A program made the translations under genes and the position numbers. Shown here one piece after another: positions 43,459-64,000 of a stretch of DNA of 64,000 bases. Origin of the DNA: Daphnia pulex (Eukaryota; Arthropoda; Branchiopoda; Diplostraca; Daphniidae); the NCBI RefSeq assembly GCF_021134715.1, contig NC_060019.1:2170001-2234000 (forward strand), read 5' to 3'. Below the pieces are notes generated by a model. That model worked only from the letters and a program-made list of their open reading frames with translations, did no database searches and was not told the DNA's origin. Each line of letters opens with the position of its first letter. Positions within the stretch are counted from its first letter, which is position 1.

Positions 43459-44649
43459 TTATTTAAGCCATTCGTCTTCATCTAAAAGGACACCATCATT
43501 TACATGATTATCAAGCACGTCAAAATCAGAATCATCAGAGGAATCAGATGAAGGATAAATCCCCAAAGGATCCGTTTCGACGGTTTGGACTGTGATCTCT
43601 TCTTCAGGATCGACAGCAAGTACCGTTTCAGCAGCAGCCTTTGTTGGATCGAGTATCCGATCATCGTGAAATTCCAAAAAGCAGTTTCTTTTCTTGGACA
43701 GACAAAGACAAATTTTGCACATACTGCACTGAGAGAATGGTCGAGATTCCTTCGTATAACCATTGGGTCTTCTCTCGGCCGTGGCTTGGCCCCATTCGCA
43801 TCGTCCTCTATTATCAACGAAAATAGGATGATGGATTCCGACCTGACTGTAGCGTATTTCATCTGGCACGCTCAGTCTATCTTTCCTTCTTTTGGCATCG
43901 GGCTCTGCCGAAAGTGGAATCCCTTTCATTAATCTTGCTTCTGGAGCATCTCCTTTGCGGCCTATCTCATCATTCAGCCCGTAAAGTAAAAGAGAAGTAG
44001 TCACGCTTCGCTTGAATTCCAAAAGACTGAGATATCTTTTGTCCTTCAGGAAGGTTTTTCCTTTCTTGTTTTTCATCGTCTGGAAAGAAATTGAACAGAA
44101 AATTATTGAAGCTTGACACTCTGTCAATAAAATTTCTGAACTTACCACCAAATCGCAGTAAGTAATCCAGCTATTCACCATACATGTTTCCATGAGGGAG
44201 TAAAAGAGACGGTGCCACCATTTTTTTGATTTGCGGTCTCTCTCGTAGTAGGAACGCAGCTGGTTCTCCGTGTCTACACCGCCCATGTTATCGACGTAAT
44301 CGCCAATAGCCTTTGGACAAGACTTTGTTCTGAACGAACCATCGCGCTGCTTCCTTTGCACCTTGACAGCCTCTGAGCCGTGGAAGTTGGAAGCGACCCG
44401 AAACGGCTTAGTGTCCTTCCAGATGAAAACACCCTTTCTTCCCGTTCCTGGTTCACCGCCAAACTTGGCCACAAATTCGTCCTGCGGAAGGTTCGATTCG
44501 TTGACCGTAAAAATGGGTTGCCCCACTCTGGTTTTAAGAATCGTTCCAACCGCATTGATCCCCCTTTTGTCGAGTTCGTCCAGGAGGGCGATGCTCGTGA
44601 AGAAGCGATCAAAGGCTACTACATGTCCGTTCTTGCCAAGGGCTTGCAA
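43459..44649 (-). pseudogene. piggyBac transposase, C-terminal catalytic part, copy 1
   Basis: Open for 396 codons including the in-phase 66-nt intron. It begins in the strand leading to the second catalytic Asp (HVVAFDRFFTS), contains the third Asp (MGGVDTENQLRSYYERDRKS), then the C-terminal Cys-rich cross-brace domain and an acidic tail ending DEDEWLK. It is out of frame with the upstream part. Confidence 0.85.
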
Positions 44650-45990
44650 AGATCAAGAACTACTCCTTCCACCATCGTAAAATTGGAATCCTTGAGCGTT
44701 TCACCAATTCGAGCTCCATGATAGATCTCAAAATTATAGGTGTAGCCTCTACTACAGCATCGACTCCAGATTTTGAAGCCGCTTTTGATGGGTTTGCCCT
44801 TCATCGTTTGCCGAAGCATGGATCGACCTTTAAATTTCACCATGGATTCGTCTATACTTTGCCACCTGGGAGGCCGGCGACACTCATTAAATTGCTTATT
44901 GAGTACGTCCACCAACGATCGGATCTTATAAATAGGATCCTTTCGCACCTTCAACTGTTTATCCTTGTCTTATTCACCATGATCAGCGCAAGCCAAGTGT
45001 TTTTAAATGAATTAAAAACGCTCACGTGTCATTGCTTGATGAACGATTCCAAGGCCGTAACCAGTATCCGGCTGCCTTTCCCAATACATCGACAGCTCCG
45101 GCAAACGATGATAACCCATCAAGAACTGTATTCCGAGGAACGCAACAAGTTCATATCTGTCGACTAAACCTCCATGAAGTATTTCGCTAGACTGCCTCCC
45201 TTCTGGTCTGCCTCCAAATCTCCTAGATGGTGGATTGCCCTTTTCAACGTAATTCCAGGAGTCTCGGATCCGTTTATTTGTCTTTTCTAGCAAAAGATCA
45301 AAAGTTTGGAATCCGCCAAGCATAGACCAAAAGATGTGGAGAGGAGTATCACCCGGATGGAACTTAGAAAATACGGGGCCCACAGGTTCCTCTGGAGTAA
45401 ACGCGTAGGAATACTGCCGGAACTGTGTCTCCTGATTCTCATCATCATTCTCTTTGTAATCTTCTTCCACATCAGTCCAATAGCTTACTCCCTTCCAATG
45501 CTTGTTGATGGCTTTATGGTGTGCGATTAATTTAGCATCGGCCTTTTGTTGCATTCTAAGCTTCACCGCATCTGAATTGACCTTTTTAGGGGCCATGGAT
45601 GGATGTCCTTTAGAACTGCGAGGGCCACGATGTCTCAATTTCGCATTGGTCAGTCCGATTTTTTTTCGAGCGAAGTAACGAGTCACTTCGTCGTCGGTAA
45701 CTTGACCGTCAGAAGAGCACCCTACCTTGGTGGTTGACCGGGTCATTCTTCTCCTCTTTTCAGGTGGCGAGGAACCACCTTCAAGATCAGCATCTTGTGC
45801 TTTATTTTTTGTTGCCTTCGACGAACCATCCGGATTAAAAGCCAGGCGTTCCAACCTGACGGACACTTTCCGCAAATTGACCGCTGACTTAGCTTTAACC
45901 GGAGGTTCTTCGTTGGCAGTCTCTTTTTCTTTTTCGGCAATTGGTTCCTCCTCATCAGCCGGCCCCTGATCAAGACCGGCTCCCTTTCAG
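44619..45990 (-). pseudogene. piggyBac transposase, N-terminal part, copy 1
   Basis: Two open pieces: 45012 to about 45990 (Lys/Arg-rich N-terminal region, then DTPLHIFWSML and FLGIQFLMGYHRLPELSMYW, typical of piggyBac) and 44619-44954 (first catalytic Asp in SIDESMVKFKGR). They are separated by stops around 44960-45010. An upstream acidic stretch in another frame reaches the truncated 5' end at 46146. Confidence 0.8.
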
Positions 45991-48988: not shown

Positions 48989-50179
48989 TTATTTAAGCCA
49001 TTCGTCTTCATCTAAAAGGACACCATCATTTACATGATTATCAAGCACGTCAAAATCAGAATCATCAGAGGAATCAGATGAAGGATAAATCCCCAAAGGA
49101 TCCGTTTCGACGGTTTGGACTGTGATCTCTTCTTCAGGATCGACAGCAAGTACCGTTTCAGCAGCAGCCTTTGTTGGATCGAGTATCCGATCATCGTGAA
49201 ATTCCAAAAAGCAGTTTCTTTTCTTGGACAGACAAAGACAAATTTTGCACATACTGCACTGAGAGAATGGTCGAGATTCCTTCGTATAACCATTGGGTCT
49301 TCTCTCGGCCGTGGCTTGGCCCCATTCGCATCGTCCTCTATTATCAACGAAAATAGGATGATGGATTCCGACCTGACTGTAGCGTATTTCATCTGGCACG
49401 CTCAGTCTATCTTTCCTTCTTTTGGCATCGGGCTCTGCCGAAAGTGGAATCCCTTTCATTAATCTTGCTTCTGGAGCATCTCCTTTGCGGCCTATCTCAT
49501 CATTCAGCCCGTAAAGTAAAAGAGAAGTAGTCACGCTTCGCTTGAATTCCAAAAGACTGAGATATCTTTTGTCCTTCAGGAAGGTTTTTCCTTTCTTGTT
49601 TTTCATCGTCTGGAAAGAAATTGAACAGAAAATTATTGAAGCTTGACACTCTGTCAATAAAATTTCTGAACTTACCACCAAATCGCAGTAAGTAATCCAG
49701 CTATTCACCATACATGTTTCCATGAGGGAGTAAAAGAGACGGTGCCACCATTTTTTTGATTTGCGGTCTCTCTCGTAGTAGGAACGCAGCTGGTTCTCCG
49801 TGTCTACACCGCCCATGTTATCGACGTAATCGCCAATAGCCTTTGGACAAGACTTTGTTCTGAACGAACCATCGCGCTGCTTCCTTTGCACCTTGACAGC
49901 CTCTGAGCCGTGGAAGTTGGAAGCGACCCGAAACGGCTTAGTGTCCTTCCAGATGAAAACACCCTTTCTTCCCGTTCCTGGTTCACCGCCAAACTTGGCC
50001 ACAAATTCGTCCTGCGGAAGGTTCGATTCGTTGACCGTAAAAATGGGTTGCCCCACTCTGGTTTTAAGAATCGTTCCAACCGCATTGATCCCCCTTTTGT
50101 CGAGTTCGTCCAGGAGGGCGATGCTCGTGAAGAAGCGATCAAAGGCTACTACATGTCCGTTCTTGCCAAGGGCTTGCAA
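48989..50179 (-). pseudogene. piggyBac transposase, C-terminal part, copy 2
   Basis: Protein identical to the frame at 43459-44649; second and third catalytic Asp and the Cys-rich end are present, out of frame with the N-terminal part. Confidence 0.85.
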
Positions 50180-51520
50180 AGATCAAGAACTACTCCTTCC
50201 ACCATCGTAAAATTGGAATCCTTGAGCGTTTCACCAATTCGAGCTCCATGATAGATCTCAAAATTATAGGTGTAGCCTCTACTACAGCATCGACTCCAGA
50301 TTTTGAAGCCGCTTTTGATGGGTTTGCCCTTCATCGTTTGCCGAAGCATGGATCGACCTTTAAATTTCACCATGGATTCGTCTATACTTTGCCACCTGGG
50401 AGGCCGGCGACACTCATTAAATTGCTTATTGAGTACGTCCACCAACGATCGGATCTTATAAATAGGATCCTTTCGCACCTTCAACTGTTTATCCTTGTCT
50501 TATTCACCATGATCAGCGCAAGCCAAGTGTTTTTAAATGAATTAAAAACGCTCACGTGTCATTGCTTGATGAACGATTCCAAGGCCGTAACCAGTATCCG
50601 GCTGCCTTTCCCAATACATCGACAGCTCCGGCAAACGATGATAACCCATCAAGAACTGTATTCCGAGGAACGCAACAAGTTCATATCTGTCGACTAAACC
50701 TCCATGAAGTATTTCGCTAGACTGCCTCCCTTCTGGTCTGCCTCCAAATCTCCTAGATGGTGGATTGCCCTTTTCAACGTAATTCCAGGAGTCTCGGATC
50801 CGTTTATTTGTCTTTTCTAGCAAAAGATCAAAAGTTTGGAATCCGCCAAGCATAGACCAAAAGATGTGGAGAGGAGTATCACCCGGATGGAACTTAGAAA
50901 ATACGGGGCCCACAGGTTCCTCTGGAGTAAACGCGTAGGAATACTGCCGGAACTGTGTCTCCTGATTCTCATCATCATTCTCTTTGTAATCTTCTTCCAC
51001 ATCAGTCCAATAGCTTACTCCCTTCCAATGCTTGTTGATGGCTTTATGGTGTGCGATTAATTTAGCATCGGCCTTTTGTTGCATTCTAAGCTTCACCGCA
51101 TCTGAATTGACCTTTTTAGGGGCCATGGATGGATGTCCTTTAGAACTGCGAGGGCCACGATGTCTCAATTTCGCATTGGTCAGTCCGATTTTTTTTCGAG
51201 CGAAGTAACGAGTCACTTCGTCGTCGGTAACTTGACCGTCAGAAGAGCACCCTACCTTGGTGGTTGACCGGGTCATTCTTCTCCTCTTTTCAGGTGGCGA
51301 GGAACCACCTTCAAGATCAGCATCTTGTGCTTTATTTTTTGTTGCCTTCGACGAACCATCCGGATTAAAAGCCAGGCGTTCCAACCTGACGGACACTTTC
51401 CGCAAATTGACCGCTGACTTAGCTTTAACCGGAGGTTCTTCGTTGGCAGTCTCTTTTTCTTTTTCGGCAATTGGTTCCTCCTCATCAGCCGGCCCCTGAT
51501 CAAGACCGGCTCCCTTTCAG
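50149..51520 (-). pseudogene. piggyBac transposase, N-terminal part, copy 2
   Basis: Same two open pieces as in copy 1 (50542 to about 51520 and 50149-50484), with the same interrupting stops. Confidence 0.8.
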
Positions 51521-53348: not shown

Positions 53349-53863
53349 GGACAATGTATTTTTAGAAAGACTATCAAAAAAGCACATTTTGGTTTTTTGA
53401 AAAAGCCAAGCATTCATGTTTCTTGTGAAAATGAAATCTACATTATAACAATGTGAAGATATTCGCAATGTTGTATCCGGAGGAAGTCAACAGAAAGCGG
53501 GAAATCAATGATGACTGTGGTTGTTGAAAAAGGTGCTATAACCCCGAAGAGACTTCTTCTGTAGCCAAACGTCAATGACTGTTGTTTTAGGGAAATGAGA
53601 AATGACTTGCTCTGGATGGGGAAGAATTCCATAAACACCGGAGGGGAATCTATATAGATTACACCTGAACCTGGAACAGTAGCTCCGAACAGTGGAAGAA
53701 CATCATGTGCGTGCACCCTACGCTGCAAATGTTCAGTAGATTTAACAGTCATCAGTTAAAGAAGCCATATCGCGAGTAAGCGCTCTTCATTGGACGCTTT
53801 AGTTGGTTAAAGGAGTCATGAGGCGAAGAAATTGAATTAAAACAACAGTAGTCATTCACCATG

Positions 53864-53900
53864 CGCCCCTGGGTGGGATCGAACCACCAGCCTTCCGGTT
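53864..53900 (-). pseudogene. 3' half of tRNA-Asn split by LINE copy 1, unit 5
   Basis: The 3' half (anticodon-loop AACC onward to the acceptor) directly abuts the poly(A) of the LINE, seen as poly(T) on the plus strand. The 5' half is at 59442-59477. Confidence 0.93.
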
Positions 53901-54198
53901 TTTTTTTTTTTTTATATTTAAACGATTTATTGTCACAATTAAAATTTAAATTTCTTTACAGATACTTGGGGCATTTACGAGATTTGTGACATAAGTGACT
54001 TGCTGTGGCCAAGGAGAAACATTACAAAGAAAAAGAAACATTTCGAGACGGAAATGAAAGAGGACAAATGATTTTGGTGAAAAATGTGAAATTTAACAAT
54101 ACGACATCTGGGGGGATCCAAGAAATATTAACTGTAATGAGAGAACAATGTTGTATAAAGATAAGAAGAAATCAGTTGAGAAATTTGAGAGGGAATAT

Positions 54199-57100
54199 TT
54201 ATGGATTAGAAGGTGACATCTGGGGAGAATTTTTTGAATGAAGGAGGCTTGACCAGAGAGACTGTATTTCATTGATTGCTGGGGTGAGGTTTTGGCTGCG
54301 GGCGGTCCAGACGGTGATGATGTAGGATTGGATGAGTGCCAGTATTTTCTCTTTATTGGGGCCATTTCCAATGTCTCCATTTATTGTTGATTTGAGTGGT
54401 TTTTGACATCCAAGTTTCGTTAGTTGAATTCGAAGCCATAAACTGATGTGGACTTTCTCAGAACAGAGTAACATAAGATGGTCGTCAGTTTCTTGGCCGC
54501 TATTGCATAGAGGACATTGGTCATTTCTAGAAAGTCTGAAGCTTGTGAGGCGCATTTTGGTAGGGAGCTGATTATGGTTGAAATCCCAGACCAGTTCAGC
54601 GTTTCTTCCTTTCATTTTGGCCACCCAACGCCAGATGGAAGCCCAGTCGAGGTCTGGTTTCGCAACTTCGGTTCTCCCTGGTTGCCCAAGGTTAGCGATC
54701 AGGTGATTGTAGGTGGCGCGGTGATTGGATACGGTTGACGATGTGAAGATGCCAGCTTTAAGTAGAGCGGTGATGGTTGAAAGTGCGGTGGTGAAATATG
54801 GATGTGATGAATGGGATGCATTAAATCTGGGCTGGATGATTTGTTGAAGGAGATTCTTGAGGTGTGGACCCAACCAATAAACGGCTGCAGCTCTCTCAAT
54901 AGCCTCGGGATGGATTAAAGATTTAAAGATTTGACGGGTGAAAAGGGATTGGAAGAATTGAAAAAGTAAGGTGACTCCAAGTCCACCTTGGAGTCGGGGG
55001 CGGATCAAAACATTTAGGGGTGGGTGCTCTCTTCGTTGTGCCCAAAGAAATTTGTTGCATTTTTGTTGGAGGAGAAGGGCTTGGGTTTTGTTGCAAGGGA
55101 GTACATGAGCTATATGAACAAGTTGTGATAAGACATGTTGTTTGATGAATAGGACGCGACCATAAAAAGTGAAATGACGGTGTGTGTTTGTGATAAGAAT
55201 ATTTTGTATGATGTTGAACTGTCTTTGCCAATTGTCTCTTACTGTTGTTTTTATTTCAGAAGAAAAAGTAATTCCAAGAATTTTCAAGTTGTCTACTTGA
55301 GTTATCCAATCATGTGGCCAAGTACGTTTAGGATGAGTTTGATTGAAATTGCTTCTACGTGGGATCGAACTCCTAACCTCAGGAATCCCAGCCGACGCTA
55401 CTACCGTCTGCGCTACTACGGCCTGTGGACATTGATTTAAGGTCCAAGTGCCTAGACCAAGTAATTTTGTCTTCCCCTTGTTAATACGTGCATTTGTCCA
55501 GGCACAAAATTCTAGAATAATCTCGGATGCACGACGTACATCTTTCATTGATGAGACAAAAACTACTAGATCATCTACATATGCACGAACTTTGATGCGT
55601 TTTCCGTAGTGTTCAATTCCGTCAATACCCCTAGACAAGCAAACTAAAAGCGGTTCAATATAGAGGGCAAACAGATGGACTGACAGAGGGCACCCCTGTC
55701 GCACGGATTGTGCATTGTCCACAGTACCGACTATGTCATTACCGTTCAATGGGCATAGTTCAGTTATACTGTACAGCGTTTTCAACCAATCAACAAAGAG
55801 GGGGGGATAGCCCATGGCAGTCATTACTTCCCACAGAACGTCTCGATTGACAAGGTCATATGCTTTCTCTAAATCGTACGCGATAATGGCGGCCGGTTTG
55901 AGAGAAGATACCTCTTTTGATTTACGACCTGTATTATCAATGACATCTCGGATTAAACACAAGCTGTCAAAGATATAGCGGCCGGGTACACCACCTTTTT
56001 GATGTGAGTCTAGAGAGTTTTGAAGAGATTTTCTCAGACGAAAAGCCAATACTGACGCGATTAACTTATAATCGGTATTTAACAAAGAGATTGGTCGGTA
56101 ATCGGTGATTTTACTCGGTGATGGGATTTTTGGGACTAATCTTATAGCTGCCCTTCCCTGCGACGGCTGGAGTTTTCTTTTTTCGAGGACGCAATTCATC
56201 ATTTCCAGAAAATGAACACCAATAACATCCCAAAATTTTATATAAAACTCAAAAGGAATGCCATCTGTACCCGGGGCCTTGTTCTTTTTAGTTGCCTTAA
56301 GGGCGATGTTAATTTCATCTACTGTGAACGGATCTACAAGAAAGTTGCCACTCTCCGGGATCGAACCTAGTACTCCTCGATTCAACGCTTGAGCGTTTAA
56401 CGACTGAGCTACCACTGATACACCCGAATCGTTTTTAGTGGGTTTTGTACGGGTAAGTGCACCTCTAATCCCTTCTAGAAATTTTCCAGCTAATTGGGTA
56501 TCGGGGGAGGGCTGGTTCTGAAAAATTCTACTAAAGTGTTCAATTATTTCTTGATTAATCTGCTCAGGTTGGGTAATTTTACAGTTATCATTAGTTTTGA
56601 GCTGAGTGATCAGAGACTTCTGGAAATTGCTCGTTGACTTGTTCATATGAAAGGTAGATGGCTCTTCTTCGGCTATACTTTGAACGCGTGAACGTATTGC
56701 AAATCCCCTCAATGCTTCTCGCTCCCAGGCTAGAAACTCACGTTTCAACTCCATGTAACGCGCATGATTGAAATTTACATTGTTCACGGTTTCTTTTAGT
56801 TGATGTTGGAGTAATTTCCTTTTGACTCTCTGATCACAGATTCTCTTTTTACAATAGTTCATTGATAATCGCCTGAGGCTAGGTTTGAAAATAATCTCCC
56901 ACCAATGATCTACGTTTTCAATACGGGATGGGTGTTGAGACATTTCTTCAATAAAGACATGCACCAAGTTTATATATTCTTCTTCCTCAAGAATTGATGA
57001 GTTAAGTTTCCATAAATTCCTTGACTTGTTCCTCACTACACTAGGAGGGGTGGTGCTGTTTATATACCCTACGATTGGTCTGTGATCCCCGAGTGGTAAG

Positions 57101-57738
57101 TCGTGCAAATGGATATCAGAAAATTTTACGTGATGGTGGCAATAAATTCGGTCCAATCTAGCCTGGCTAGCCGCACAATTGTACGTCCAACAAGGTTCAT
57201 TTTTCCGAATTTCTCTCCAGACATCTGTTAATGAAAGGGCTTTTACTAAATCTCGGAGGGGTTCTAGTAATGCTAGTCTAATTTTAGGTGGTGTTGTCTT
57301 GCTACTTTTACGGTCATCGATCTCGTCAACGGCATTAAAATCTCCCAATATAATTGCTGGTGCCTTATACTGGGCAACATAAGCCGGAATAGTTTGCCGG
57401 AGGAAAGAATCTCTATAACTTTTATTTTGGTCACCAGATGGGGCGTAAATACACACGAAAGCAAGACCCTTTACTTCCATGGCTATCAGCCTCCCCTCCG
57501 GTTCAAACAAAATGTTTTTGGCGCTCAGCCCGTGTCGTACTAGGATGGCTGTCCCATGTTGTCTAGGACCGAGATTTGTGTGCATCTGGTAATGTTTAGT
57601 AAATACGGTGCTAGAGTGAAATACTACTTCTTGCAAACATATAATATCAAGTTTATTATGTAAAAAGAAATTGAGTATTATTTGAAGTTTGTCAGGTGAC
57701 GATATTCTGTTGATATTATATGTCGCGATGTTAGTCAT
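54199..57738 (-). CDS. LINE ORF2: APE endonuclease, reverse transcriptase, CCHC finger
   Basis: 1179 residues. Residues 1-235 are an apurinic-type endonuclease: ATYNIN, LQEV (catalytic Glu), YAPSGD, LGDFNAV, ARLDRIYC and GDHRPI (catalytic His). Residues about 500-800 are the reverse transcriptase: KAPGTDGIPFEFY, DYRPISLLNTDYKLIA, AYDLEKAYDLVNR, QGCPLS and YVDDLVVF (catalytic Asp pair, about residue 718). Near residue 1070 is a finger CPLC-x8-H-x4-C typical of L1/Tx1 C-termini. The protein nicks the target and copies the RNA there (target-primed reverse transcription) in the nucleus. Two tRNA-like modules are translated as linkers at about residues 440-463 (between endonuclease and RT) and 772-795 (after the RT core). 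The ATG lies 2 nt after the ORF1 stop (TAA TC ATG). Confidence 0.93.
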   Translation of the reverse strand: MTNIATYNINRISSPDKLQIILNFFLHNKLDIICLQEVVFHSSTVFTKHYQMHTNLGPRQHGTAILVRHGLSAKNILFEPEGRLIAMEVKGLAFVCIYAPSGDQNKSYRDSFLRQTIPAYVAQYKAPAIILGDFNAVDEIDDRKSSKTTPPKIRLALLEPLRDLVKALSLTDVWREIRKNEPCWTYNCAASQARLDRIYCHHHVKFSDIHLHDLPLGDHRPIVGYINSTTPPSVVRNKSRNLWKLNSSILEEEEYINLVHVFIEEMSQHPSRIENVDHWWEIIFKPSLRRLSMNYCKKRICDQRVKRKLLQHQLKETVNNVNFNHARYMELKREFLAWEREALRGFAIRSRVQSIAEEEPSTFHMNKSTSNFQKSLITQLKTNDNCKITQPEQINQEIIEHFSRIFQNQPSPDTQLAGKFLEGIRGALTRTKPTKNDSGVSVVAQSLNAQALNRGVLGSIPESGNFLVDPFTVDEINIALKATKKNKAPGTDGIPFEFYIKFWDVIGVHFLEMMNCVLEKRKLQPSQGRAAIRLVPKIPSPSKITDYRPISLLNTDYKLIASVLAFRLRKSLQNSLDSHQKGGVPGRYIFDSLCLIRDVIDNTGRKSKEVSSLKPAAIIAYDLEKAYDLVNRDVLWEVMTAMGYPPLFVDWLKTLYSITELCPLNGNDIVGTVDNAQSVRQGCPLSVHLFALYIEPLLVCLSRGIDGIEHYGKRIKVRAYVDDLVVFVSSMKDVRRASEIILEFCAWTNARINKGKTKLLGLGTWTLNQCPQAVVAQTVVASAGIPEVRSSIPRRSNFNQTHPKRTWPHDWITQVDNLKILGITFSSEIKTTVRDNWQRQFNIIQNILITNTHRHFTFYGRVLFIKQHVLSQLVHIAHVLPCNKTQALLLQQKCNKFLWAQRREHPPLNVLIRPRLQGGLGVTLLFQFFQSLFTRQIFKSLIHPEAIERAAAVYWLGPHLKNLLQQIIQPRFNASHSSHPYFTTALSTITALLKAGIFTSSTVSNHRATYNHLIANLGQPGRTEVAKPDLDWASIWRWVAKMKGRNAELVWDFNHNQLPTKMRLTSFRLSRNDQCPLCNSGQETDDHLMLLCSEKVHISLWLRIQLTKLGCQKPLKSTINGDIGNGPNKEKILALIQSYIITVWTARSQNLTPAINEIQSLWSSLLHSKNSPQMSPSNP
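55353..55424 (-). repeat. tRNA-like module A inside ORF2
   Basis: On the minus strand: A box TAGCGCAGACGG at 55415, good 4-bp D stem (GCGC/GCGT), B box GTTCGATCC beginning 45 nt after the A box, the same spacing as in the tRNA-Lys of this array. T and acceptor stems are degenerate. The flavour of the D and anticodon arms is tRNA-Met-like, but this is tentative. Translated in frame as VAQTVVASAGIPEVRSSIP. Present also in LINE copy 2 (63385-63456) with one base changed. Confidence 0.75.
56349..56420 (-). repeat. tRNA-like module B inside ORF2
   Basis: A box TAGCTCAGTCGT at 56411 and B box GTTCGATCC at 56366, again 45 nt apart. D, T and acceptor stems only partly pair. Translated in frame as VAQSLNAQALNRGVLGSIP, in the linker between endonuclease and RT. 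Peptides of this form are the usual translation of tRNA-derived sequence. Confidence 0.75.
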
Positions 57739-57740
57739 GA

Positions 57741-59240
57741 TTAATATTTAAATTTGGGTTTAGAGGGTTGGGTTTTGTTATCGTGGGCTTTTTTCCTTCT
57801 AACGGCCTCCATTGCTTTGAGAGTTTTATCTACTATGGGGGTTGATGGAGTGCCGAGGGGGACGCCCAAGGACTCCTGAGTCTCACTCACATGACTAGCC
57901 TCCTGGCTATCAAGTGGCCGTTGTCCTGGCTGAATACTCCCACCAGAAAAAGAAATGTCTTCATCAGGATTTGAAATCGAAACCACTTCGGTTGCATCCA
58001 TCTCTTCAACCACCTCGTTATCCATCTGATCTATCGTGGATGGAATAGATGGTACTCCAGGTGAGATTGGAGCGGGTGGAACATCGTTCCCCCCAGAGAG
58101 GGCGGGAAAAGAATTAATGTCCGCACCCGGTATCGAAACTGGAACCTCTCGAGTCGGAGACCCGAGTTCAACCAACTGAGCTACACCAGATACAATTTCC
58201 TCAGCTACCTCGCCCGAGCCAGAGGAAGAGGCAGTACGACTCCTCTTTTTTGATTGTTTTTGTTGGTCACGGAATTCCCTCGTCTGTTTCATTTTCTTTT
58301 TCTTGACCAATTTGGACGCAACAGACGAACCTACACAGTTGGTGTCTTCAGCGTCAGCATCGGTGTCAGAAGAAGATTCAGTTCCATCGGGTTTCGAAAT
58401 CTGATCCTCTGGAGCTCCATCAAGAACGACAACAGTCGACGTCGTTGGCCTCTGGGCTAACTCGGGGAATGTATCAGCGTCAACAGTTGGAGCAATTGGC
58501 ATTTGCCCGCCACCAATCGGGCCTGTCTCCTGGGGCTTCCTAACAGTTGTCCTAACTGGGCCACGATTTGTTAGTAATACACTGCTATAGCTACGTGTTC
58601 CAATGGGGCCTTTTGAAATGGTGCTGGGGTTTGTTAAACTACGGGGTTGCTTGGGGCAATTAGCTAAGACATGGGTGGGAGAATCACACATGCGGCATGT
58701 GTGCATTTGCCCTGCATAAGACACCATTATTGGTTCCTTGTAGCTTCCAAAGGTGATATAAGACGGAATGCTCTTGTGGATTTCCATATCCACGTTGACA
58801 ATTCCAGTCTTTATCCCGTTCCACCTTGGGAGCGATCTATCCTGATACGTGTCCCAAAAAATCCGAGAAATCACTCCATACTCACGCAATCTCTTGTTTA
58901 GCAGGCTTAGGTCATCATCGAATTTGAAATGTTGAATTCTAACGCGTACAAGGTTAACTGACCTATCTCTCACTCTAATTTTGACCTCCTTGCCACTAAT
59001 GACTACTGATTCTTTAGCACTAAATTTATTCAAAAATTCAATATGGTCATTGACGGTCTTGAACCCAATTCGGAAAACGCAAATAGCTCGTCCTGGTAGG
59101 CGAGAAACTGCATCAAAGATGCTATCAGATTCATTACTATCGTGCTCAAAACATTCGTAGAACTCATGCCTGGTCACTTCAGTATTACCAAAAGAGATTT
59201 CGGCAGTACGTGGCCAGACGTCTGGGGATTCCGATCCCAT
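57741..59240 (-). CDS. LINE ORF1: nucleic-acid-binding protein with CCHC knuckle
   Basis: Start chosen at 59240 (MGSESPDVWPRT); the frame is open 57 codons further up but that part is hydrophobic, low-complexity and lies in the 5' UTR. 499 residues. Residues about 20-180 have the Tx1/L1-type RNA-binding layout ending in a zinc knuckle C-x2-C-x4-H-x4-C (CRMCDSPTHVLANC, about residue 180). A Pro/Ser-rich region, a basic stretch KKKKMKQTREFRDQQKQSKK (possible nuclear signal) and an acidic tail follow. A tRNA-like module is translated at about residues 350-373. ORF1 proteins coat the LINE RNA. The stop TAA is 2 nt before the ORF2 ATG. Confidence 0.9.
   Translation of the reverse strand: MGSESPDVWPRTAEISFGNTEVTRHEFYECFEHDSNESDSIFDAVSRLPGRAICVFRIGFKTVNDHIEFLNKFSAKESVVISGKEVKIRVRDRSVNLVRVRIQHFKFDDDLSLLNKRLREYGVISRIFWDTYQDRSLPRWNGIKTGIVNVDMEIHKSIPSYITFGSYKEPIMVSYAGQMHTCRMCDSPTHVLANCPKQPRSLTNPSTISKGPIGTRSYSSVLLTNRGPVRTTVRKPQETGPIGGGQMPIAPTVDADTFPELAQRPTTSTVVVLDGAPEDQISKPDGTESSSDTDADAEDTNCVGSSVASKLVKKKKMKQTREFRDQQKQSKKRSRTASSSGSGEVAEEIVSGVAQLVELGSPTREVPVSIPGADINSFPALSGGNDVPPAPISPGVPSIPSTIDQMDNEVVEEMDATEVVSISNPDEDISFSGGSIQPGQRPLDSQEASHVSETQESLGVPLGTPSTPIVDKTLKAMEAVRRKKAHDNKTQPSKPKFKY
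58121..58192 (-). repeat. tRNA-like module C inside ORF1
   Basis: A box TAGCTCAGTTGG (perfect to TRGYNNANNNGG) at 58183; B-box-like TTTCGATACC at 58138, 45 nt later. A partial D stem and a TCGG/CCGA hairpin in the anticodon region remain. Translated in frame as VAQLVELGSPTREVPVSIP, the same phase as modules A and B. Confidence 0.72.
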
Positions 59241-59441
59241 TTTACCCAAAATAGGGGCAAAAGGACGGGGAGAAAAATGCAAAAATAGGGAAAAAAAAAC
59301 CAAAATGGCGCTCAACAAACAACAAGGGAAACAGGACACACATGCAACAATACAACAAAAGAGAAACAAAAAAAAGAACAAATAATTTTTTGACTCACAG
59401 CAAGATGTCACACTTTGGAGCTCAGTTAGACACGTCTAGTC

Positions 59442-59477
59442 ACAGCCGAACGCGCTAGCCAATTGCGCCACAGAGGC
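59442..59477 (-). pseudogene. 5' half of tRNA-Asn split by LINE copy 1, unit 5
   Basis: Bases 1 to about 36 of tRNA-Asn, ending CTGT, next to the 5' end of the LINE. Confidence 0.93.
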
Positions 59478-62230: not shown

Positions 62231-64000
62231 TTATGGATTAGAAGGTGACATCTGGGGAGAATTTTTTGAATGAAGGAGGCTTGACCAGAGAGACTGTATT
62301 TCATTGATGGCTGGGGTGAGGTTTTGGCTGCGGGCGGTCCAGACGGTGATGATGTAGGATTGGATGAGGGCCAGTATTTTCTCTTTATTGGGGCCATTTC
62401 CAATGTCTCCATTTATTGTTGATTTGAGTGGTTTTTGACATCCAAGTTTCGTTAGTTGAATTCGAAGCCATAAACTGATGTGGACTTTCTCAGAACAGAG
62501 TAACATAAGATGGTCGTCAGTTTCTTGGCCACCATTGCATAGAGGACATTGGTCATTTCTAGAAAGTCTGAGGCTTGTGAGGCGCATTTTGGTAGGGAGC
62601 TGATTATGGTTGAAATCCCAGACCAGTTCAGCGTTTCTTCCTTTCATTTTGGCCACCCAACGCCAGATGGAAGCCCAGTCGAGGTCTGGTTTCGCAACTT
62701 CGGTTCTCCCTGGTTGCCCAAGGTTAGCGATCAGGTGATTGTAGGTGGCGCGGTGATTGGATACGGTTGACGATGTGAAGATGCCAGCTTTAAGTAGATC
62801 GGTGATGGTTGAAAGTGCGGTGGTGAAGTATGGATGTGATGAATGGGTTGCATTAAATCTGGGCTGGGTGATTTGTTGAAGGAGATTCTTGAGGTGTGGA
62901 CCCAACCAATAAACGGCTGCAGCTCTCTCAATAGCCTCGGGATGGATTAAAGATTTAAAGATTTGACGGGTGAAAAGGGATTGGAAGAATTGAAAAAGTA
63001 AGGTGACTCCAAGTCCACCTTGGAGTCGGGGGCGGATCAAAACATTTAGGGGTGGGTGCTCTCTTCTTTGTGCCCAAAGAAATTTGTTGCATTTTTGTTG
63101 GAGGAGAAGGGCTTGGGTTTTGTTGCAAGGGAGTACATGAGCTATATGAACAAGTTGTGATAAGACATGTTGTTTGATGAATAGGGCGCGACCATAAAAA
63201 GTGAAATGACGGTGTGTGTTTGTGATAAGAATATTTTGTATGGTGTTGTACTGTCTTTGCCAATTGTCTCTTACTGTTGTTTTTATTTCAGAAGAAAAAG
63301 TAATTCCAAGAATTTTCAAATTGTCTACTTGAGATATCCAATCATGTGGCCAAGTACGTTTAGGATGAGTTTGATTGAAATTGCTTCTACGTGGGATCGA
63401 ACTCCTAACCTCAGGAATCCCAGCCGACGCCGCTACCGTCTGCGCTACTACGGCCTGTGGATATTGATTTAAGGTCCAAGTGCCTAGACCAAGTAATTTT
63501 GTCTTCCCCTTGTTAATACGTGCATTTGTCCAGGCACAAAATTCTAGAATAATCTCGCATGCACGACGTACATCTTTCATTGATGAGACAAAAACTACTA
63601 GATCATCTACATATGCACGAACTTTGATGCGTTTTCCGTAGTGTTCAATTCCGTCAATACCCCTAGACAAGCAAACTAAAAGCGGTTCAATATAGAGGGC
63701 AAACAGATGGACTGACAGAGGGCACCCCTGTCGCACGGATTGTGCATTGTCCACAGTACCGACTATGTCATTACCGTTCAATGGGCATAGTTCAGTTATA
63801 CTGTACAGCGTTTTCAACCAATCAACAAAGAGGAGGGGATAGCCCATGGCAGTCATTACTTCCCACAGAACGTCTCGATTGACAAGGTCATATGCTTTCT
63901 CTAAATCGTACGCGAGAATGGCGGCCGGTTTGAGAGAAGATACCTCTTTTGATTTACGACCTGTATTATCAATGACATCTCGGATTAAACACAAGCTGTC
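62231..64000 (-). CDS. LINE ORF2, copy 2, C-terminal part
   Basis: Open to the window edge, over 587 residues. It contains AYDLEKAYDLVNR, QGCPLS, YVDDLVVF, the tRNA-like module A peptide (one V-to-A change) and the CPLC-x8-H-x4-C finger. No break is seen, so this copy may also be intact. Confidence 0.9.
   Translation of the reverse strand, partial: DSLCLIRDVIDNTGRKSKEVSSLKPAAILAYDLEKAYDLVNRDVLWEVMTAMGYPLLFVDWLKTLYSITELCPLNGNDIVGTVDNAQSVRQGCPLSVHLFALYIEPLLVCLSRGIDGIEHYGKRIKVRAYVDDLVVFVSSMKDVRRACEIILEFCAWTNARINKGKTKLLGLGTWTLNQYPQAVVAQTVAASAGIPEVRSSIPRRSNFNQTHPKRTWPHDWISQVDNLKILGITFSSEIKTTVRDNWQRQYNTIQNILITNTHRHFTFYGRALFIKQHVLSQLVHIAHVLPCNKTQALLLQQKCNKFLWAQRREHPPLNVLIRPRLQGGLGVTLLFQFFQSLFTRQIFKSLIHPEAIERAAAVYWLGPHLKNLLQQITQPRFNATHSSHPYFTTALSTITDLLKAGIFTSSTVSNHRATYNHLIANLGQPGRTEVAKPDLDWASIWRWVAKMKGRNAELVWDFNHNQLPTKMRLTSLRLSRNDQCPLCNGGQETDDHLMLLCSEKVHISLWLRIQLTKLGCQKPLKSTINGDIGNGPNKEKILALIQSYIITVWTARSQNLTPAINEIQSLWSSLLHSKNSPQMSPSNP
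63385..63456 (-). repeat. tRNA-like module A in LINE copy 2
   Basis: A box TAGCGCAGACGG at 63447 and B box at 63402, 45 nt apart, at the homologous place in ORF2. It is therefore a fixed part of the family and not a chance insertion into one copy. Confidence 0.75.

Follow-up and report, generated by a model that had tools for sequence, protein, structure and literature searches.

The Dictyostelium retrotransposon TRE5-A locates transfer RNA (tRNA) genes via the B-box and TFIIIC (PMC5911963, PMC5391098, PMC4640811), and Dictyostelium loci with A- and B-boxes outside a tRNA context, which are targets of TRE5-A, have been proposed as assembly sites for RNA polymerase III (Pol III) (PMC5391098). 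Retroelements capture small-RNA promoters in their non-coding parts, as in the heads of short interspersed nuclear elements (SINEs) and the long terminal repeats (LTRs) of Helenus and Cassandra; in Helenus, the captured tRNA A- and B-boxes are conserved as promoters while the RNA fold is lost (PMC10886601). These accounts, like the comparisons with known systems in the last section, draw on partial text of the papers concerned. Here we describe a long interspersed nuclear element (LINE) in a 64,000-nucleotide stretch of the Daphnia pulex genome (the window; C3:2170001-2234000 in the 133 Mb and 13 contigs searched) that lies inside the anticodon of a tRNA-Asn gene and carries three in-frame tRNA-like segments, modules A, B and C, in its two open reading frames (ORFs). 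Judged by their sequence, the modules are almost certainly tRNA-derived, and their silent sites suggest that the A- and B-boxes may be kept as DNA.

tRNA-like modules in the reading frames of a Daphnia LINE

An earlier note on the window (the original prediction) had claimed three sense-oriented modules in frame with the LINE proteins. Reading of ORF1 and ORF2 bears out their coordinates, orientation and frame, and the recurring peptide VAQ-x10-V-x2-SIP (equivalent to VAQ-x13-SIP) is correct in all three. The element is organized as follows.

53863..53900, minus strand: 3' half of the split tRNA-Asn gene
53901..59441, minus strand: LINE with two ORFs and a poly-A end, inside the anticodon of the tRNA-Asn gene
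54199..57738, minus strand: ORF2, with APE-type endonuclease, reverse transcriptase (RT) and zf-RVT (PF03372, PF00078, PF13966)
55360..55416, minus strand: module C, VAQTVVASAGIPEVRSSIP, in an ORF2 loop inside the RT; A-box 55415-55404, B-box 55371-55361
56356..56412, minus strand: module B, VAQSLNAQALNRGVLGSIP, in the ORF2 linker before the RT; A-box 56411-56400, B-box 56367-56357
57741..59240, minus strand: ORF1, with CCHC knuckle CRMCDSPTHVLANC and no Pfam match above the cut-off
58128..58184, minus strand: module A, VAQLVELGSPTREVPVSIP, in the C-terminal part of ORF1; A-box 58183-58172, B-box 58139-58129
59442..59477, minus strand: 5' half of the split tRNA-Asn gene
63385..63456, minus strand: module C of a second LINE copy that the window edge truncates, 97% match

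The modules stand out by box score and by similarity to tRNA genes. Scoring used the A-box TRGCNNARNNGG followed at 24-46 nucleotides by the B-box RGTTCGANYCC, with 18 specified letters in total. The three best sense pairs of the LINE are the modules themselves, matching 18, 17 and 16 letters, with the next pair at 15; the antisense strand of the LINE and the remaining window sequence, after masking of tRNA genes and LINEs, reach at most 15. Among 300 codon-shuffled ORF versions the best score is 16 (reached in 11) and the third-best never exceeds 14, against 16-18 for the modules, and chance resemblance was rejected. The gap between A-box and B-box is exactly 32 nucleotides in all modules, the same as in tRNA-Lys genes of this genome. 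Local alignment to tRNA genes yields scores of 39, 44 and 55 versus maxima of 33, 37 and 35 for 100 mononucleotide shuffles each. Module C is nearest to tRNA-Lys(TTT) among the tRNAs compared; the allele found in most other copies (tRNA-Lys score 49) is less close than that of the window copy. Across the whole genome, a strict A/B pattern gives 124 matches versus 0 for its reversed control and a relaxed pattern 701 versus 65, with modules B and C appearing among tRNA genes in the first places listed. Regularly spaced tRNA-like A/B-box repeats (TAGCTCAGTTGG...) were also seen at C3:201-27356, C5:11939278-11971536 and C9:9576261-9595319, on C3 and C9 at a contig end.

An intact tRNA fold in the modules was rejected. 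The tRNA covariance model (RF00005) has no match in the whole element at E ≤ 10 and none in A and C scanned singly, B being covered within the whole-element scan. The original prediction had regarded background covariance scores as a reason to doubt the modules; the scores are indeed at background, which bears on a functional tRNA fold and not on tRNA origin.

By its domains, the window element is a LINE with APE endonuclease, putatively L1/Tx1-like. A single ORF holds the APE endonuclease (PF03372, E-value 5.7e-13) and the RT (PF00078, 1.4e-29), the PDB match of the ORF2 family profile is human LINE-1 ORF2p (E 2e-94), and among named proteins those closest to ORF1 come from Daphnia. The predicted insertion into a tRNA gene is confirmed: the tRNA-Asn gene is split inside the anticodon and both halves flank the element. 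At the junctions of the window copy, the one copy in which they were checked base by base, 36 nucleotides of tRNA-Asn lie upstream and 38 downstream, and 1 is missing. Among 17 copies retrieved from the genome, nine match over their full length and both flanks and two more from base 23 on; the remaining ones are truncated at a locus edge, interrupted by gaps or masked. The copies are about 97-99% identical. Most belong to a tRNA array on C3 and a few to C2, C10 and C12, and many may be array duplicates, not separate insertions. Within ORF2, module B lies between endonuclease and RT as predicted, but module C, predicted to follow the RT core, lies in a loop within the Pfam RVT_1 match (545-827). 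Module A was said to be common to both LINE copies; in the window, the second, edge-cut copy shows module C alone.

Distribution of the modules among copies and relatives

Genome-wide queries return 24 matches at 21 places for module A, 20 for B and 22 for C. Their coordinates place every match within a copy of this LINE, save for one match of module A in an older relict (L010), which has the same tRNA-Asn 5' junction and module A at 81%. No dispersed copies outside the host LINE are among the module DNA matches and no present-day SINE source of the modules was found in the genome, in searches that skip very common words. Reading revealed no SINE body, 3' tail or target-site duplication after the modules, which old insertions could have lost. 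A retroposed tRNA or a SINE head may have been captured.

Comparison with relatives points to insertion of B and C into ORF2. In a blastp alignment of ORF2 with that of L009, a related LINE in the same genome (open, 1115 amino acids, 34% identity), the alignment runs through both proteins and is interrupted at B by a gap of 34 residues and at C by one of 36. The ORF2 protein search listed the best 120 of 289 relatives, and a tree of 39 ORF2 rows was built from the window copy, L009 and 37 proteins among the matches listed; it leaves out the linker columns and holds relatives only, with no named reference clades. Nineteen of the 39 rows, L009 included, have short linkers at both places. Because of these short linkers and the gaps relative to L009, B and C are read as insertions. 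The other 20 rows form one clade, of which 17 members have a long B linker and 11 a recognizable B motif. A VAQ-like module C is present in the eight closest rows, with a possible degenerate one in P0011. Among the matches listed, some with 42-57% identity have retained both the motif and its spacing. Module A is recognizable in ORF1 proteins of D. pulex, D. magna and D. sinensis and in many metagenome proteins; at its place it is not recognizable in the most distant ORF1 relatives, nor in L009. On the tree, B would be the oldest module and C a younger one, and A would be older than the named Daphnia ORF1 sequences.

The predicted capture of tRNA or tRNA-derived sequence into ORF linkers agrees with these gaps at B and C and with the tRNA spacing and sequence of the modules. 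The original prediction had also asked whether relatives lacking any tRNA link align straight through these segments, which is not the case for B and C. Additional pairs of VAQ-like and SIP-like residues at the same spacing, found with a loose motif in the distant ORF1 proteins P0161, P0157 and P0145, could be further modules or chance.

L009 (C9:7082000-7091900) itself lies in the T arm of a tRNA-Glu gene. It has an open ORF1 of 373 amino acids in addition to ORF2, its flanks are the two sides of CTTTCACCCAAGAGGCTCGGGTTCGATTCCCGGTATGGGA, which is intact at 12 places, and neither ORF contains a module. One copy was read and a second place has a similar 5' end; L009 represents another family of LINEs inserted in tRNA genes of this genome. 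P0017 as query against this genome recovered the modular family together with other relatives, and three of the new places, those fetched, belong to a module-free family. Four further relatives in this genome (L011, L068-L070) have no module at readable places. Outside this genome, a search of viral contigs found no DNA of module-bearing relatives, a search of genome contigs gave four distant LINE fragments (L064-L067; 22-26% identity), and a plasmid search gave one record with 29% identity over 19% of the query.

Silent sites, motif conservation and a possible role of the boxes

If the peptide alone mattered, silent sites of old modules should be random. In all three modules, however, the box serine codon is TCG, which makes up 11% of serine codons, and all share GTA, CAG and a T preceding the box TCG. 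The summed box score is 51 of 54, and 1000 synonymous recodings reach at most 48. Recoding was also split between boxes and interior and run against 83 tRNA references, with the same pattern in parallel runs. When only the boxes are recoded, the observed tRNA similarity is kept in 37 of 1000 cases for A and in 0 of 1000 for B; recoding of the interior alone keeps it in 559 and 837 of 1000, respectively. This interior test is weakened for A and B because parental isotypes may be missing from the tRNA references. For module C of the window copy, the similarity survives in 47 of 1000 box recodings and 3 of 1000 interior recodings. In A and B, box silent sites keep tRNA letters beyond the needs of the peptide, and silent sites between the boxes do not. 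The pattern fits old modules with randomized interiors and boxes held, and a younger module C that is still like its source. A link between the modules and expression, raised in the original prediction, is possible via Pol III promoter boxes, for which the silent-site tests are an indirect indication.

Motif and spacing are also traceable in proteins. A loose form of the motif, [VILA]A[QRK]-x13-S[IVLNS]P, is present in 39 of 174 proteins, compared to 0-2 at x10-x12 and x14-x17, 6 at x18, 4 at x20 and 12 at x21; a stricter motif occurs in 32 of 183 at x13, with 3 at x10, 5 at x18 and at most 1 elsewhere in x7-x19. Owing to common descent, the proteins counted are not an independent sample. Mean pair identity of the VAQ/SIP residues is 0.94 for B (10 rows), 0.86 for C (9 rows) and 0.79 for A (19 rows). 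The corresponding values for B, C and A are 0.67, 0.38 and 0.65 in the interior, 0.49, 0.40 and 0.40 in the linker before, 0.66, 0.45 and 0.50 in the linker after and 0.72, 0.76 and 0.69 in the whole protein. In an AlphaFold2 model of ORF2 (mean predicted local distance difference test score, pLDDT, 81.6), the two longest stretches below 50 are residues 432-463 and 770-803. Modules B and C lie in these stretches, and hence the motif is not required by any predicted fold.

The reading we favor, with a probability of roughly 0.45, is that selection acts on the A/B-box DNA, the boxes being kept as putative TFIIIC-docking sites; TFIIIC docking would be a natural role for kept boxes. The LINE, found in the anticodon of tRNA-Asn genes, carries three in-frame tRNA-derived segments, B and C inserted in loosely structured ORF2 linkers and A in ORF1. 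Their tRNA fold is lost, whereas both box ends, with the exact distance between them, survive in many relatives. The part kept would be chiefly the DNA of Pol III internal-promoter boxes. Boxes along the element could serve as TFIIIC-docking and perhaps Pol III-transcribed sites. More speculatively, bound TFIIIC might hold copies in the open, Pol III-rich chromatin of their tRNA array, or the boxes might instead yield short sense transcripts. Runs of T begin 18, 102 and 93 nucleotides downstream of the B-boxes of A, B and C, respectively, and are candidate ends of such transcripts. We offer only tentatively, and with more reserve than for selection on the boxes, the wider proposal of a tRNA-array LINE with Pol III internal promoters at several sites of its coding sequence, selected as TFIIIC-docking DNA alongside the translated codons, in which module capture recurs and new copies bring tRNA-gene-like chromatin landmarks.

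A number of observations weigh against selection on the boxes. Three C3 copies of the LINE (2292021-2292092, 2325422-2325493 and 2360474-2360545) have module A split by a deletion and shorter ORF1 frames; a 23-nucleotide deletion in module A was read in copies L021 and L022. Within the 20-row clade the B motif is degenerate in three rows (P0010, P0011, P0013) and absent in five (P0015, P0016, P0018, P0030, P0032), P0020 being without data, and ORF1 of D. magna and D. sinensis has VAR instead of VAQ in module A, which breaks the A-box. Tests on silent sites cover three modules from this genome only, and the boxes are what drew first attention, an ascertainment bias; for the commonest genomic allele of module C, 62 of 1000 box and 22 of 1000 interior recodings keep the similarity, which makes the box test for this allele weak. 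Across 17 genomic copies, many of which may be array duplicates, box codons vary no less than others, with synonymous changes in 3 of 24 versus 120 of 1622 codons outside the modules and replacements in 4 of 24 versus 164 of 1622 (module interiors: 1 of 33 and 8 of 33). The VAQ/SIP residues are well kept for a linker yet not exceptional, because an equally high mean over six columns is attained at 11% (B), 38% (C) and 29% (A) of protein positions. Conservation in the linker after B matches that of the B interior, and in A the peptide between the boxes is conserved too. Box-compatible replacements in relatives number 7 of 17 against 4.2 expected (P 0.086), in a test that dropped segments not 19 residues long or with fewer than 4 core matches. 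Finally, insertion into a tRNA gene has no need of modules, because L009 sits in a tRNA-Glu gene without any, and the suggestion that they are needed for targeting is not supported.

Some of these observations would be expected if the modules were relics, that is, tRNA- or SINE-derived insertions tolerated in linkers and slowly decaying without function, their likeness reflecting common tRNA origin. Linker length varies, several lineages lack the motif, box variation is not depleted among genomic copies, and overall likeness to tRNA is greatest in C, the youngest module. This explanation is less probable than the favored one, since B keeps VAQ/SIP and the exact spacing between P0017 and the window copy over about 1.7 changes per site (branch sum) next to a preceding linker that is poorly conserved (0.25, 16 rows), and since three modules are retained in one element. 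Selection on residues is less likely again: VAQ-x13-SIP would then be a tRNA-derived short linear motif of ORF1 and ORF2 proteins, for example for a common binding partner. Its presence in both proteins, conservation above the adjacent upstream linker, the conserved interior of A (SPTRE) and first-position V/I/L exchange, which fits a hydrophobic residue, speak for such a role, but box silent sites keep tRNA letters (TCG in 3 of 3), the ORF2 modules lie in low-confidence loops and C interiors vary widely (0.38). That VAQ...SIP linkers merely happen to look like tRNA boxes, as the missing Rfam tRNA match might suggest, is highly improbable given tRNA alignment scores beyond those of shuffles, the codon-shuffle box scores and the 124 versus 0 pattern matches. 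That the LINE RNA imitates a folded tRNA, in targeting or in priming, would suit tRNA-derived sequence in a tRNA-targeting element and is equally improbable with no covariance-model match and a tRNA-Glu-inserted relative without modules; the original prediction had raised tRNA mimicry for targeting or expression.

Elsewhere in the window, two DDE_Tnp_1_7 transposase regions (43459-45986 and 48989-51516), which we take to be piggyBac-type, have identical translations and lie within duplicated tRNA-array units; the first pair was scanned.

Comparison with known tRNA-associated elements

The Daphnia LINE resembles other tRNA-targeting LINEs, namely Dictyostelium TRE5-A and TRE3, NeSL-1_TV (tRNA-Pro) and the planarian elements LIN15_SM (tRNA-Arg) and LIN25_SM (tRNA-Glu), in being a non-LTR element located in or beside tRNA genes. 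TRE elements insert beside the tRNA gene, upstream or downstream, while the Daphnia LINE lies inside the anticodon and is not of TRE type. NeSL and LIN elements are among families related to the NeSL clade, whereas the Daphnia element has an APE endonuclease. The portions of text consulted mention no tRNA-derived ORF modules for TRE, NeSL or LIN elements; the Daphnia LINE has three. Dada DNA transposons also insert within tRNA or small nuclear RNA genes, in Daphnia pulex within U6 genes, but encode a DDE transposase, and no tRNA-derived coding modules are mentioned in the corresponding excerpts (PMC3706591, PMC8869645). A literature search, with subscription journals largely outside it, found no report of tRNA-derived modules in LINE ORFs, nor of this Daphnia family.

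The Dictyostelium A/B-box loci share with the Daphnia modules a tRNA-like spacing outside tRNA genes (PMC5391098), but they lie in extrachromosomal ribosomal DNA and the modules in a transposon ORF. Should TFIIIC use the boxes, the same DNA would both encode protein and serve as a Pol III promoter, and the element would lend itself to studying how site-specific LINEs live with tRNA-gene chromatin and exploit it. Were the modules relics, coding insertions of tRNA origin that can still be recognized in relatives at 42-57% identity would remain unusual markers of LINE ORF growth. The modules may be comparable to the Helenus promoters: they are tRNA-derived and have lost the fold, and in the window copy box letters are kept beyond the needs of the peptide, but the proteins of some relatives have box-breaking residues. 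Helenus and SINE heads are non-coding promoters, however, and the Daphnia modules are three in-frame segments in the ORFs of an autonomous-looking LINE. The captures described in these excerpts are non-coding, whereas the Daphnia LINE, which inserts into tRNA genes, has its three within ORFs.

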